The notes below the pieces were generated by a model, which made no database searches, was not told the origin of the DNA, and saw nothing but the letters and a program-made list of their open reading frames with translations. DNA of 53,261 nucleotides, taken from positions 1 through 53,261 of the forward strand of contig QCSN01000011.1 of NCBI GenBank assembly GCA_003211515.1, written 5' to 3'. The stretch is from Synechococcus sp. AG-670-F04. Its GTDB lineage: Bacteria > Cyanobacteriota > Cyanobacteriia > PCC-6307 > Cyanobiaceae. The translations under genes were made by a program, and so were the position numbers. Below, in pieces: positions 13,217 through 31,856 of the stretch (positions within the stretch are counted from its first letter, which is position 1; each line of letters starts with the position of its first letter).

Positions 13217-13894
13217 ATGGGCGTTGACAATGAAAGCGTTGAAACAAGAGATGCTAGTGATAATGCTTGCGGGTTATTCACCACTCTCACTAACACTCTG
13301 TGGATGAAGGGTCTCTGGGTTCTCGTTATTCTGTGGATCTTTGGAAGTTGCTTGCCCGACGATCCAAAACCATCAACAATTTCATCCTCTTCTTCCACGG
13401 ATGAGATGAAACCAACACCACCCAAACCAAAACCAAAACCTCCAAAAGCATCTGCTCCACCAAAACCCGCACTCAAACCAACTCCGCCTGCACTTGCTCG
13501 TCGTCCTATAACCAATCCTGATCCACCAGCACCAGTAGTTGCTCCACCCCAACAAGCGACAATAGATGCTCCCATCACTAATTACTTGCCGAAGGGCAAG
13601 GTTACTTTTCAGTCTTACAAAACACCAGGCAAGTTAGAAACCTTCGGGTATAAGAACAACACAAGAACTAATGTCAACGGACATAGGGTTGTGGATGTGA
13701 ATTTCTCCGATGGATACGACGCCTCTTATGTTTTCTGGAGAACTGGCGCGGTTGAGATTTTCAGCATAGACGGACAAGGCAAATTGGATATGACACCAGG
13801 AACCTGGAAGAGTAATACTGAAGGTCAGGTCGTGATTACATCCAACACTGTATCTATCACTACCTTCTATGGACTAAATGTTCCCTCAAACTAA
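13217..13894 (+). CDS. membrane-anchored protein with Pro/Lys-rich linker
   Basis: 225 residues: a short polar N-terminus, one membrane helix (about 27-43, ending in a GSC motif), a long proline/lysine-rich linker (about 57-112, repeated KPKP and PPKP) and a C-terminal domain of about 100 residues with beta-like sequence. The layout resembles periplasm-spanning anchored proteins, but no family is recognised. Its stop TAA overlaps the ATG of the next frame. It is in the same frame as the 12896-13147 segment. Confidence 0.55.
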   Translation: MGVDNESVETRDASDNACGLFTTLTNTLWMKGLWVLVILWIFGSCLPDDPKPSTISSSSSTDEMKPTPPKPKPKPPKASAPPKPALKPTPPALARRPITNPDPPAPVVAPPQQATIDAPITNYLPKGKVTFQSYKTPGKLETFGYKNNTRTNVNGHRVVDVNFSDGYDASYVFWRTGAVEIFSIDGQGKLDMTPGTWKSNTEGQVVITSNTVSITTFYGLNVPSN

Positions 13895-23175: not shown

Positions 23176-24792
23176 ATGGATCAGCAGACGCCGCCACGGG
23201 CACGCACCAGCGGGGTGCTGGTCCATCCCACCGCTTTTCCCGGCAGTCCGGTTTGTGGAAGCTTCGGTGGGCCAAGTCGGCGCTGGTTGCACCTGCTTGC
23301 CGAGCACGGCATCGGTGTGTGGCAGCTCCTCCCCCTGGCCCCGCCTGATCACACCGGATCGCCCTACAGCTCCCCTTCCTGCTTTGCCTTGAACCCCTGG
23401 TTCCTGGATGCCGATGATCTGTGCAACGAGGGATTCATCACAAGGGAGGCCGCGGCCTCTCTCCCCGGAGCAGCTGCACCGCCTGAGGGTGGTGAAAGCC
23501 TCGATTTCGAACTGGCGACCCAACGCAGCCATGCCATGGCCGCTGCCCTACTGGTGGCATGGCCGGAACAGGACAACACACGACAAGAGGAGTTTGAGCA
23601 GTGGTGCCAGCAGCAGCGTTGGCTCGAGGATCACGTGTTCTTCGTGGTGCTCCATCAGCAATTCGGCGATGCCTGGTGGACCTGGCCGAATGACCTGGCC
23701 CGTCATCGCCCTGGACACCTGCGGCAATGGGCAAGCGACCATGGCGATGCGCTGCTGCAAGAGCGTTTGGTGCAGTGGCATCTCGACAGGCAGTGGCGGG
23801 CGATCCGGCGGTTGGCGAACGACCTCGGTGTACTGCTGTTCGGGGATGTGCCGTTCTATGTGAGTGCGGACAGTGCGGACGTCTGGAGTCACCGCTCGTT
23901 GTTCACGATTGAGGCCGATGGTCGACTCGTGACCCAGAGTGGTGTTCCGCCGGATTACTTCTCCGAGACCGGTCAGCTCTGGGGCTCTCCGGTCTATCGA
24001 TGGGGACGCCACAGGCTGACGCAATTCCGCTGGTGGCGGCATCGGATCGGACGGCAGCTGGCGCTCGTGGATCTGTTGCGCCTCGATCATTTCCGGGCCC
24101 TGGCTGGCTTCTGGGCCGTCCCTGGGAGCGATCAGACAGCGGAAAACGGTCGCTGGGAGCCGTCACCGGGCCGATCTCTCCTGCACAAGCTTCGCCAGGA
24201 CTGCGGTGGGGCGCTGCCGCTCATCGCGGAAGACCTCGGGGTGATCACCCCGGATGTGGAAGCACTGCGCGACGACTTCGAGTTGCCGGGAATGAAAGTG
24301 CTGCAATTCGCCTTCGATGGCATCCCAGACAACCCTTACCTGCCCGAAAACATCGTTGGAACCCGCTGGGTTGTCTACACCGGGACCCACGACAACCCCA
24401 CCACGCTGGGCTGGTGGCAGAACCTCGATCACGACAGCCGATCCCGCATTCTTGCGAGGGATCGGCGCAGCGAGGATGCACCGGCATGGACCCTGTTCGA
24501 CATGGCTTTCGCCACAAGCGCCGGGTTGGTTGTGGCACCGCTTCAGGATCTTCTACATCTGGACGATCAGGCGCGCTTCAACACACCGGGCACCAATACC
24601 GGGAACTGGATCTGGCGTCTTCCGTCCTTTGACGCCCATTTGATGGGGGCATTGAAGGGCTACGGCGAACGCGGCGCCGTCTGGGGACGCACCCTTGCAG
24701 GATCCGCCGGTCTCCGCGGAACAACCGGTTCACGCGAAACAGCCGGTTCACGCGAAACAGCCGGTTCACGCGAAACAGCCTCGATGCGATAA
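23176..24792 (+). CDS. malQ: 4-alpha-glucanotransferase (GH77)
   Basis: 538 residues. It moves alpha-1,4-glucan segments in glycogen and maltodextrin metabolism. GH77 catalytic regions are present: RLDHFR (nucleophile Asp near 304), IAEDLG (acid/base Glu near 352) and GTHDNPTT (Asp near 405). The N-terminus shows LLHPTAFPGSP-like and SPYSSPSCFALNP segments. The conserved domain ends near GYGERGAVWG; the last 30 residues are a GSRETA tandem tail from an 18-bp triplicate repeat. The final 133 bp overlap the RodZ-like gene on the other strand. Confidence 0.95.
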   Translation: MDQQTPPRARTSGVLVHPTAFPGSPVCGSFGGPSRRWLHLLAEHGIGVWQLLPLAPPDHTGSPYSSPSCFALNPWFLDADDLCNEGFITREAAASLPGAAAPPEGGESLDFELATQRSHAMAAALLVAWPEQDNTRQEEFEQWCQQQRWLEDHVFFVVLHQQFGDAWWTWPNDLARHRPGHLRQWASDHGDALLQERLVQWHLDRQWRAIRRLANDLGVLLFGDVPFYVSADSADVWSHRSLFTIEADGRLVTQSGVPPDYFSETGQLWGSPVYRWGRHRLTQFRWWRHRIGRQLALVDLLRLDHFRALAGFWAVPGSDQTAENGRWEPSPGRSLLHKLRQDCGGALPLIAEDLGVITPDVEALRDDFELPGMKVLQFAFDGIPDNPYLPENIVGTRWVVYTGTHDNPTTLGWWQNLDHDSRSRILARDRRSEDAPAWTLFDMAFATSAGLVVAPLQDLLHLDDQARFNTPGTNTGNWIWRLPSFDAHLMGALKGYGERGAVWGRTLAGSAGLRGTTGSRETAGSRETAGSRETASMR

Positions 24793-28797: not shown

Positions 28798-30027
28798 TCA
28801 AGGTTCCCAACTCTGTGAACCCAGGAAGGTGAGCTCCACAAAATCGCTGGCCTGATGATCGCTGCGATCCATCTGCAGCGTGAACCCTCCGACATCCAAA
28901 TCCCGAATGGATTCCAACGCACCAATGAGGGATTGACGCGTTGGATTCGCACCGGCCCGCTCCAGGCCCTCAGTGATCAACTTGGCGGCGAGGAACCCCT
29001 CAAGGCTTGTGAAACCAAAGCTGGGGTCATCGGCATGACTGCGCATGAGCCTCTGATAGTCCGCAACCACTGGAATCCAACGGTTCCAAGGGAACGGCAC
29101 AACCTGCGCAACACCGATCCCGTTCGATTCCCCCGCTGGCATCGCCTGCTGCAAAGCCTTGGTGCCGACGAAGGACACATTCATGATCTGAGCCCAACTT
29201 CCCTTCTCCCGCAGAGCCGACGCCAATGCCGCAGAGCTGACGTAAGTGGAGACGACGATCACGCCATTGGGCTCAGCTACCATTAATTGCCGTACGGCTT
29301 CAGACACCTGGTTGGAATTGCGTTGCACCGTGGCTGTAGCCACCGGTTTCAACCCATGGGATTGAAGAGCCGCCAGTGCGCCATTAAGACCATCTTGGCC
29401 GAAGGCGTCGTCCTGGTAAACCACGGCGATGCGGTGGTGGGCATCCCTCACCAACTCATCGACCATCGCCGCAATCTCCTTGCGGTAACTGGCCCGAAGG
29501 TTGAACACCATCCGCAACTCGGGTTGACGGAGCAAGCTGGCGCCCGTCATCGGAGCAATCAAAGGAACATCCGAAGCCTCGATCATCGGCAACACCACCT
29601 TTGTTGTCGGCGTCCCCACGTAACCGAACAAGGCCAGAAGGTCGGGGCGTTGAAGCAGGGTCTCGGTGTTGCGCAGCGTCTTTTCCGGCTCGTACTGATC
29701 GTCAAGACTGACCAAACGAATGTGGCGGCCATGGACACCACCTTTTCGGTTGACCTCATCGAACCAAGCCATGGCTCCCCGCTGATAGTCAAGCCCCAAC
29801 TGGGCGGACGGCCCGGTGAGCGGCAGAGACTGTCCCAAAACCAACTCAGCTTGATCAGCTGCGACAAGGCCTGAGGACGGCTCTGGACGAATGGCTGCCG
29901 CTGAAACGCGCCCAGAGTGCGGCGTCACGACTCGAAGCATCAGCACAGCGGTGCAGGCAAGCAGAGCACCCGTGGCCAAAGTGAAGCCAGTGCATGTCCG
30001 CTGATGGCCCCGAGGAAACAGAAGCAC
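28798..30027 (-). CDS. ABC-type branched-chain amino acid/urea-like periplasmic binding protein
   Basis: 409 residues from GTG 30027 with an uncleaved or signal helix at about 15-33. The Peripla_BP_6 fold shows in VLGQSLPLTGPSAQLGLDY, FDEVNRKGGVHGRHIRLVSLDD, GYVGTPTTKVVLP, PLIAPMTGAS and AVVYQDDAFGQDG. Such proteins bind amino acids, amides or urea. No ABC permease or ATPase gene follows; the next gene on this strand is 41 bp away and unrelated. Instead it diverges from, and overlaps by 24 bp, an ion-channel-like gene. It may serve as a sensor rather than a transporter subunit, which is inference. Confidence 0.85.
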   Translation of the reverse strand: MLLFPRGHQRTCTGFTLATGALLACTAVLMLRVVTPHSGRVSAAAIRPEPSSGLVAADQAELVLGQSLPLTGPSAQLGLDYQRGAMAWFDEVNRKGGVHGRHIRLVSLDDQYEPEKTLRNTETLLQRPDLLALFGYVGTPTTKVVLPMIEASDVPLIAPMTGASLLRQPELRMVFNLRASYRKEIAAMVDELVRDAHHRIAVVYQDDAFGQDGLNGALAALQSHGLKPVATATVQRNSNQVSEAVRQLMVAEPNGVIVVSTYVSSAALASALREKGSWAQIMNVSFVGTKALQQAMPAGESNGIGVAQVVPFPWNRWIPVVADYQRLMRSHADDPSFGFTSLEGFLAAKLITEGLERAGANPTRQSLIGALESIRDLDVGGFTLQMDRSDHQASDFVELTFLGSQSWEP

Positions 30028-31233
30028 TGGAACATCCTTGCCGTCGTTTCAATTCTGCTCGCCGCTCTGCTGGCTGTCTCAGGGATCAACCAGCTGGATG
30101 TTGGGCGGGTACCGAGTCGTGACGCACTGCGCCTCGCCTCCTCCTCCCGAGCTCTGACCACCGATACGACTCGATTGCCGAGCGACGGCTGGAGCCCGTT
30201 GCGCGGCCAGAAGCTCACGGATCGAGAAACGGTCACGGATCAGCAGGCCCTCGAGCAGGCGAATTACCACGTACAGGTGGGGGTCTATGCCACCAGCACC
30301 TACGACCTTGATCTAAGTATCCCGAGCTTCTCATCCAACGGCTACGTGTGGATGCGCTGGGGGGAGGCACTGCAGCAGTACCTGGACGAACAGGACCAGA
30401 CCATCCATGAAGGCGTCACTCTTGTGAACAGCCTGCTCTCGGATGCCGATCCGGTGCTAACGCCGCTGTCGAAGGCCCCGCTCAAGGAAAAGAACGGCTC
30501 CTACTACCAGCTGTTCACGTACGTGGGTCGGTTTTACATCGACAAAGCGTATTTTCGCCACTTCCCTTTCGTGACCGTAAGCCTGCCGTTGGTGCTCGAA
30601 ATGGAGGATGTGAACGGCCAACTGGATTACCCCAACTTCCGCTTTGAACCGGACACCCAGAACAGTGGAATGGGATTGTTTGCCGAGATCATCGGCTGGT
30701 TGAACAGGGGCTGGTCAATCGCCGAGTATCGACACAACTACGCCACCAATTTCGGCTTGGGCGGTAGCGCCGATGGCTACAGCCTGATCGTCTACGACAT
30801 TTCCTTTGGCACCTCATCCTGGTCCGCCTTCTGGAGGTTGATGCTTCCGCTCCTAGTGGTGATGGCGATGGTGCTGCTGGTGTTCAAGGTTCGCGCTGAT
30901 GAGCAGGATGCCAGGGCTGGGATCCCGGTCACCGTGCTGCTCACCCTGGTGTTCCTGCAGCAGACGTATCGGGAGGAACTTCCCGACCTTCCCTACCTCA
31001 CCTTCCTTGATCAGGTGTATGTGGTGGCCTATATGGTGACCTTGCTTGCCTTTGTGCTGGTGATCTTCATCGGACGTCGTTACGGTGAAATCGACGAAAT
31101 GCCTGAGGGACCTCAAAAAGAGATCAAGCAGAATCAACTACAACGGCTTGATGAAATCTGGCCCTTAACGATGGTGATTTTCAGCTCGATCAGCATCCTG
31201 GCTTGCTGGTTCACCCAACCCACAGTGAGCTGA
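30004..31233 (+). CDS. pentameric ligand-gated ion channel (Cys-loop type) homologue
   Basis: 409 residues from ATG 30004. A signal/anchor helix spans 10-28. Residues 88-270 look like the channel family's beta-sandwich: YHVQVGVYATSTYDLD then a W at 119, and YFRHFPF (183-189) at the Cys-loop/Pro-loop place. Four helices follow: M1 278-296 with the central Pro, M2 306-320 (AGIPVTVLLTLVF), the M2-M3 loop ELPDLPYLTFLD (325-336), M3 332-357 and M4 386-403. Compared from memory with GLIC, the order, spacing and motifs agree. The FPFD signature is FPFV here. It would be an inner-membrane ion channel opened by a ligand in the periplasm; ligand and ion are unknown. Divergent from a periplasmic binding protein. 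Confidence 0.75.
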   Translation: MAPRKQKHWNILAVVSILLAALLAVSGINQLDVGRVPSRDALRLASSSRALTTDTTRLPSDGWSPLRGQKLTDRETVTDQQALEQANYHVQVGVYATSTYDLDLSIPSFSSNGYVWMRWGEALQQYLDEQDQTIHEGVTLVNSLLSDADPVLTPLSKAPLKEKNGSYYQLFTYVGRFYIDKAYFRHFPFVTVSLPLVLEMEDVNGQLDYPNFRFEPDTQNSGMGLFAEIIGWLNRGWSIAEYRHNYATNFGLGGSADGYSLIVYDISFGTSSWSAFWRLMLPLLVVMAMVLLVFKVRADEQDARAGIPVTVLLTLVFLQQTYREELPDLPYLTFLDQVYVVAYMVTLLAFVLVIFIGRRYGEIDEMPEGPQKEIKQNQLQRLDEIWPLTMVIFSSISILACWFTQPTVS

Positions 31234-31277
31234 ACTTGACCAGTGAGCTGAACTTGACCGGTGAGCTGAACTTGAGC
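31224..31277 (+). repeat. three 18-bp tandem repeats at the channel gene's stop codon
   Basis: AGTGAGCTGAACTTGACC occurs at 31224-31241 and 31242-31259 exactly, then with two changes at 31260-31277. Each unit carries a TGA in the channel gene's frame; the first is the actual stop (31231-31233). The repeat also lies before the RlpA-like gene. Confidence 0.9.
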
Positions 31278-31355
31278 GATGACGGAGTTCTTTCATGGCT
31301 GGACGGAACCGCTTCAATGTTTTCAGGCGGTGCATGGCGATTGAGACACCCAACG

Positions 31356-31856
31356 ATGAAACTCCTTCTGCTCATGCTGCTTGCTGGCGAAGCAGCACTG
31401 GCGCAACAAGCGGAACAACTTGTATCTCCAGGGCTGAACCAACCCAATCATCGCGCCGCTGAACATCCACTGGCGATGGAGGAGGTACCACGATTGCTGC
31501 CACTGCCGCCGCCGCTGGTACCGCTACCGGTTGAGCCGACCCGAACGGAGCCACCAGGCTCGATTCAAGTGGTGCATGGGGCAGCGAGCTGGTATGGGCC
31601 TGGCTTCTACGGACGGAGTACCGCTAATGGTGAACGACTGCAGAAAGGAAGCCTCACCGCCGCCCACCGCACACTTCCCTTCAACACCTTGGTTCGTGTT
31701 ACGAATCTGGCCAATAATCGGTCCGTGGTGGTGAGAATTAATGATCGTGGACCGTTCAAGCACCACCGAGTAATCGATCTTGCCCATGGAGCAGCCCACG
31801 AACTGCAGATGATGCAGGCAGGAGAAGTTCCCGTAAAACTAGAAATCCTGAAGTAA
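31356..31856 (+). CDS. RlpA-like double-psi beta-barrel protein
   Basis: 166 residues from ATG 31356 with a signal peptide (MKLLLLMLLAGEAALAQ). ATG 31317 would add 13 residues; a still longer frame would run through the tandem repeat and is unlikely. After a proline-rich linker (about 48-65), residues 75-165 form the RlpA domain: GAASWYGPGFYGRSTANGERL, LPFNTLVRVTNL, VVVRINDRGPF and RVIDLAHGAA. Known members act on peptidoglycan at division sites; no lipobox Cys is present here, so it is probably soluble in the periplasm. Confidence 0.88.
   Translation: MKLLLLMLLAGEAALAQQAEQLVSPGLNQPNHRAAEHPLAMEEVPRLLPLPPPLVPLPVEPTRTEPPGSIQVVHGAASWYGPGFYGRSTANGERLQKGSLTAAHRTLPFNTLVRVTNLANNRSVVVRINDRGPFKHHRVIDLAHGAAHELQMMQAGEVPVKLEILK

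Follow-up and report, generated by a model that had tools for sequence, protein, structure and literature searches.

Does a periplasmic binding protein encoded back to back with a pLGIC homologue serve that channel as a separate sensor, or are the two genes neighbours for some other reason? The question arises from a stretch of 53,261 nt (contig QCSN01000011.1 of Synechococcus sp. AG-670-F04, hereafter the window; the genome, coded G000, is represented by an assembly of 130 contigs that is 68% complete). The channel homologue (P0001, 409 aa), whose nearest named relatives are Synechococcus records, is encoded by an open reading frame at 30004..31233 on the plus strand, and the Peripla_BP_6 binding protein (P0002, also 409 aa, with a signal-peptide-like N-terminus) by one at 28798..30027 on the minus strand. 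The two divergent start regions overlap by 24 bp (30004..30027), from the ATG of the channel at 30004 to the GTG at 30027 from which the binding protein presumably starts, and tblastn matches of both genes overlap likewise in genus relatives (L002, L003, L020-L024).

The channel was assigned to its family by profile, alignment and fold model. It matches PF02932, the Pfam transmembrane model of neurotransmitter-gated channels, with 28.3 bits, just above the cut-off of 28.1, and among solved structures ELIC is the closest to it (E 2.9e-7, residues 172-360). A fold model of low confidence (mean pLDDT 52.5; a second model, at 57.8, is of low confidence too, because few close relatives could be aligned) retrieved 50 listed PDB rows, every one a pLGIC or a pLGIC chimaera, with a best E of 4.7e-12; the fold-model matches of 30004-31233 are thus pentameric channels, in keeping with the earlier reading of the locus. 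Hydropathy gives transmembrane-like stretches at residues 7-34, 272-300, 332-361 and 384-404, and the pore helix M2 (DARAGIPVTVLLTLVFLQQ, residues 302-320, 30907..30963 on the plus strand), which carries an acidic residue at -2', was placed by alignment with ELIC. The order beta-sandwich, M1 with its Pro, M2, M2-M3 Pro, M3 and M4 is found in the protein (the low-confidence fold model included), together with FPF at residues 187-189 (F187-P188-F189) and LPDLP in the M2-M3 loop. Hydropathy and alignment also delimit an N-terminal hydrophobic helix, residues 9-31 (30028..30096, plus strand), named M0 here, in which W9, A13, A20 and L23 are invariant among seven aligned sequences.

The available text of the pLGIC inventory of Jaiteh et al. 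(PMC4795631) gives 100% conservation for the loop Pro, 93% for the [F/Y]PxD Asp and 94% for the pre-M1 Arg, the last two forming a salt bridge. By eye, the beta6-beta7 loop Pro is kept in the 101 aligned channel rows, an alignment from which L002 (undetermined residues), two short L004 pieces and duplicate rows were excluded. The Pro-loop of the window channel reads F-P-F-V (30562..30573, plus strand), Val190 replacing the Asp that is usual by Table 1 of the same inventory, and Thr replaces the pre-M1 Arg; by eye, none of the aligned clade-A rows has either residue. Five convergent rows have Arg or Lys and no Asp, and the UrtA-paired rows have Asp and no Arg. That only channels with a binding protein have lost the pair was considered and rejected, since unpaired sister rows also lack one or both residues. 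With the Asp and the pre-M1 Arg both missing, the window protein is, by its sequence, a divergent member of the pLGIC family, and its interdomain coupling must therefore differ, which could mean unusual gating or no gating. The sequence-only reading had credited the channel with the full Cys-loop order; this holds for the sandwich, the FPF loop and the order of the transmembrane helices, and fails for the coupling Asp and the pre-M1 Arg. M2 is among the most conserved stretches of the protein, and the window channel and its near relatives retain the acid at -2'. Because an acidic residue at -2' of M2 is the rule for cation selectivity, the channel is probably selective for cations.

The minus gene matches the Peripla_BP_6 profile with 186.9 bits (cut-off 31.7); its product, presumably periplasmic, has 4kv7 (E 8.7e-58) and 3lop (E 4.5e-55) as nearest solved relatives. 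It is like UrtA and LivJ/LivK in fold and family, and unlike them in having no adjacent permease genes and in its pocket: the positions of LivJ Thr102 and Glu226, which I take to be amino-acid contact residues, are Gly and Ser, respectively, in 55/55 related binding proteins. Likeness to LivJ consequently gives no support to amino acids as the ligand, and the earlier suggestion that the pair senses amino acids or related nitrogen compounds is a weak one. The NtcA-type site GTAN8TAC has a single match in the window (1.27 expected), far off at 13850, hence there is no sign of nitrogen control.

Conservation of the pair was followed in 300 genomes of the family, with cut-offs of E<=1e-3 for the channel and E<=1e-10 for the binding protein. 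Channel homologues, near or distant, were found in 104 of these genomes and binding-protein matches, some of them distant and UrtA-like, in 58. At 52% identity or above there are 49 channel rows (45/300 genomes), and in 44 of them the binding protein is encoded no more than 600 bp away and always divergently. The unpaired rows come from G102, G206, G218, G304 and G270, the copy in G270 being at a contig edge beyond which its partner would lie; the first four genomes (4/45) have the channel and no binding-protein match, which counts against a partnership. Among the 16 rows at 35-49% identity, the binding protein is convergent in 5, divergent in 1 and not adjacent in 10; the convergent ones are those of a second channel clade (5/5 rows). 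Flanking genes vary between genome groups, and the pair thus stays intact in changing surroundings. Within the genus, where a ubiB locus could be read in 30 of 34 genomes, the pair lies between ubiB and a 139-aa gene in 8 (with an extra gene in the window); at the other 22 loci the flanking genes abut, neither partner being found within the 1.5-kb flanks. The sister channel clade has other neighbours and no binding-protein partner, and this too counts against a partnership. Adjacency in related genomes, from which the earlier reading had argued in one genome, is nevertheless confirmed: the genes stay together (44/49 rows) and, within the genus, occur jointly at 8 loci and are jointly missing at 22. 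As a further point against a partnership, no such binding-protein neighbour was found at 15 channel loci in 14 genomes outside the family, 10 of these loci having been searched with both binding-protein profiles and L027-L031 with one, and the pairing therefore looks confined to the family in this sample.

Several loci of the survey deserve separate mention. L006, on a contig filed as Phycisphaerae (MED835), has the same pair, its channel and that of G266 being almost identical; since it groups inside Synechococcus next to G266, it is treated as mis-binned, the bin being probably mixed. In L208 and L212, from relatives G653 and G647, the channel copies are broken or incomplete; 17 kb of G653 yielded no binding protein, and that of G647 is damaged or partial. 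In the window, a gene at 31203-31856, presumably RlpA-like, lies between the channel and ubiB; where such a gene was found in relatives (L002, L020, L021, L022, L024), it is placed beyond ubiB. An 18-base unit, agtgagctgaacttgacc, occurs in three nearly identical copies across the channel stop codon (31224-31277). At 24660-24792, short SRETAG tandem repeats that end a malQ-like gene overlap in antisense with matching SREPAV repeats that end the converging gene.

Trees of the channel (101 rows) and of the binding protein (56 rows, FastTree only) show the same groups by eye. Two pairs lie side by side in G159 and G208 and on two contigs in G267, and in all three genomes the binding protein beside each channel belongs to the same lineage as that channel. 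Pairwise distances for the two proteins correlate at 0.92 (49 pairs), a value reached in 0/2000 permutations and to which the species tree may contribute in part.

Two peptides are candidates for the points of contact. Channel residues 38-53 (SRDALRLASSSRALTT), between the N-terminal helix and the beta-sandwich, form a conserved stretch in which comparison of paired with unpaired channels singles out a candidate docking peptide, R39-D-A-L-R-L44 (R[DE]x[LV]RL; 30118..30135, plus strand); the other is the carboxy-terminus of the binding protein, W407-E-P409 (28801..28809, minus strand). R[DE]x[LV]RL occurs in 51/51 channels with an adjacent binding protein and in 0/50 without, and W-x-P ends 48/48 listed full-length pLGIC-paired relatives, 49/49 with the window protein, neither 51/51 nor 49/49 being a set of independent counts, since the rows share ancestry and the data had been seen when the peptides were picked out. 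Left out of the W-x-P count were L087 (24% identity, 3.6 kb from the nearest channel and with another ending), the contig-edge L004 and L033, which have no C-terminus, L002 and the broken copies L101 and L212. In place of the channel peptide, the two lineages within clade A that have no partner read TDSLQL, TDKLQL, RDTLRP or, in L043, a degraded form, although their identities to the window channel (61-67% in the sandwich, 68-77% in the transmembrane part) resemble those of paired channels (medians 63% and 67%). In the partner-less sister clade the peptide is GDYLEL in 6/8 rows, GDYLAF in L081 and RDSLHL in L071; the last, a near-miss to R[DE]x[LV]RL in a partner-less channel, counts against its being a mark of pairing. 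W-x-P is present also in the convergent group (42-45% identity) and is found in 0/6 kin that adjoin a Bestrophin-like gene; R[DE]x[LV]RL, looked for by eye, is absent from the Bestrophin-like proteins.

A later sample of 20 regions, counted without L203 and L204 (repeats of L004 and L005) and without channels lacking a readable N-terminus (L210, L212 and the first copy in L208), gave the following picture. Motif-positive channels were paired in 6/6 cases, the adjacency of L211 and L222 being already known from coordinates, and 10/11 motif-negative channels had no binding protein within 500 bp. At L207, a channel without the motif is found some 245 bp away from a binding protein, which in turn is encoded divergently from a channel that has the motif. 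All 7/7 binding proteins of the sample end in W-x-P. Because both peptides were found by inspection in related sequences, I regard them as strong predictions and not as proof.

From these sequence comparisons, a functional partnership of the binding protein and the channel appears highly probable, and I lean, with distinctly less assurance, towards the pair being a split receptor-channel in which the former docks on the latter. The Peripla_BP_6 protein would be secreted to the periplasm and close there on a small solute, its presumed ligand. Once loaded, it would dock on the pLGIC, a predicted homopentamer, probably by way of its W-x-P carboxy-terminus and of the R[DE]x[LV]RL peptide that follows the N-terminal helix of the channel. 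Docking would bias the channel to opening (or, should the effect have the other sign, to closing) and alter the putative cation flow, hence the current, at the inner membrane. That gating proceeds by direct docking is a somewhat favoured reading, to be set against four others.

The binding protein may only concentrate or deliver a ligand near the membrane, the beta-sandwich of the channel itself being the sensor, as put forward in the available text of Tasneem et al. 2004 (PMC549065). The occurrence of channels without a binding protein agrees with this; what it leaves unexplained is that the partner-specific peptides lie outside the beta-sandwich and that the channel peptide decays where the partner is missing. 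I hold this explanation to be rather unlikely, if well worth keeping in mind. Another possibility is that the two proteins never touch and merely share a pathway and a divergent promoter region. The overlapping start regions speak for it, a divergent layout favouring co-regulation, but in the second clade the genes are adjacent in convergent order and share no promoter, and I consider this improbable. That the channel homologue does not conduct and is simply an anchored receptor for the binding protein would fit the loss of the Asp-Arg coupling pair, missing by eye in all clade-A rows; it fits poorly with the high conservation of M2 and the retention of the acid at -2', and seems very improbable.

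Peripla_BP_6 proteins usually feed ABC permeases, and this one might serve a distant permease, its place beside the channel being incidental, given that BPD_transp_2 genes exist in G000 and in 5/5 genus relatives. No ABC permease was found near the pair in the six genus genomes checked (G000 and five relatives), which extends to those relatives, for the permease, the earlier observation of a Peripla_BP_6 gene with no ABC permease or ATPase beside it. The near-complete relatives G005, G009, G021, G022 and G023 have exactly two Peripla_BP_6 genes each (E<=0.001), one beside the only BPD_transp_2 permeases and the other, paired with the channel, beside none. Two Peripla_BP_6 matches pass the cut-off in G000, a third being a short piece below it; the non-channel one, which scores 395 bits with a UrtA-like profile, adjoins two permease genes. 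All PF02653 matches in G000 and the 5/5 relatives adjoin this other kind of Peripla_BP_6 gene, so that the permeases have a binding-protein gene of their own. Moreover, BPD_transp_2 (PF02653) has no match at E<=0.001 in G287 and G250, two single-contig genomes about 99% complete, in each of which one channel adjoins a binding protein and another a UrtA-like protein (a further Peripla_BP_6 match in G287, its third, is weak at 32.8 bits). Since the presence of the binding protein follows that of the channel as well, service to a distant permease is hardly to be expected. The partnership of channel and binding protein thus draws its support from their joint presence at one site, a second orientation, parallel trees, permease-free genomes and the two peptides.

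Binding proteins beside bacterial pLGICs have precedents. The available text of Tasneem et al. (PMC549065), whose ART-LGIC set includes a Synechococcus sequence, describes bacterial ART-LGICs fused to an N-terminal PBP-I domain (Magnetospirillum, Bradyrhizobium) and others with stand-alone PBP-II or Cache neighbours, for which cooperation was suggested. The present pair is like these in bringing a pLGIC core together with a periplasmic binding protein, by fusion or neighbourhood; it differs in that the partner is a separate Peripla_BP_6 protein, the stand-alone neighbours being called PBP-II there, and in the orientation switch, permease-free genomes and peptides, which are not found in that text. 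DeCLIC, as presented in the available parts of PMC9897478 and PMC12664993, is likewise a pLGIC with an extra periplasmic sensing part, a fused jelly-roll domain there and a separate binding protein here. With ELIC and GLIC the window channel shares the beta-sandwich and four transmembrane helices, the FPF loop and the M2-M3 prolines; unlike them, it has a conserved N-terminal helix and linker peptide and lacks the FPxD Asp and the pre-M1 Arg. The novelty that the sequence-only reading saw in a split pair is therefore smaller than claimed, stand-alone binding proteins beside bacterial pLGICs having been described since 2004 (PMC549065, same text), although the Peripla_BP_6 variant and its evidence appear new. 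Judged by titles and abstracts, searches of the open literature listed no paper on the pair, the peptides, or the UrtA-like and Bestrophin-like versions considered below. The arrangement is thus of a known kind, and this version of it, with the evidence for it, appears to be new within the literature searched.

Native ligands and roles are, to my knowledge, established for few bacterial pLGICs. A separate and specific sensor partner would offer a handle on both, as it could be purified and screened for ligands and the peptides could be mutated. If the docking reading is true, it would add an alternative to the glutamate-receptor type of fusion as a means of linking an ion pore with a binding-protein fold, in hosts, the marine picocyanobacteria, that are major ocean photosynthesizers.

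Kindred arrangements exist in the same family. In a distant channel clade (about 25-27% identity), a UrtA-like binding protein lies directly downstream, in tandem, at 9/9 loci (L004, L107, L108, L109, L131-L134, L199); one of these partners scores 443.5 bits against TIGR03407 (NCBIfam), below the cut-off of 492.75, and the UrtA-paired channel possibly senses urea or an amide. Of 13 listed binding-protein rows away from a channel, seven were examined, and a Bestrophin-like gene is directly downstream in 7/7; the Bestrophin-like neighbours passed the Pfam cut-off in 4/4 cases tested. At these loci (L095-L101), where the binding-protein relatives stand beside the Bestrophin-like membrane protein, a PstS-like protein follows it in four, and the binding-protein gene of L101 is broken into two frames. 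Given the pLGIC pair and the UrtA-like and Bestrophin-like neighbourhoods, at least three kinds of neighbourhood in the family bring a binding protein next to a putative channel. A tentative generalization, which I would not yet call probable, is that picocyanobacteria have a class of binding-protein-gated channels in which soluble proteins freed from importers plug in by short peptides, the UrtA-like and Bestrophin-like versions included, receptor and pore having come apart and been paired anew on several occasions.

The partner-less sister clade has a neighbourhood of its own. At L072, L073, L074, L077, L082 and L083, a PLP decarboxylase, a membrane protein and, last, the channel are encoded in a co-directional row, with an MFS-like transporter before the channel in L072, L073, L082 and L083 (Pfam-tested in L082). 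The membrane protein gave a weak dCache_1 match, below the cut-off, in 2/5 cases tested and none in 3/5. The decarboxylase passes the NCBIfam histidine decarboxylase cut-off of 305 in 3/3 cases tested (334.4, 366.2 and 389.8), hence a hint that the sister-clade pLGIC may be linked to histamine. In G301 (L073), the sister-clade row adjoins the binding-protein/channel pair.
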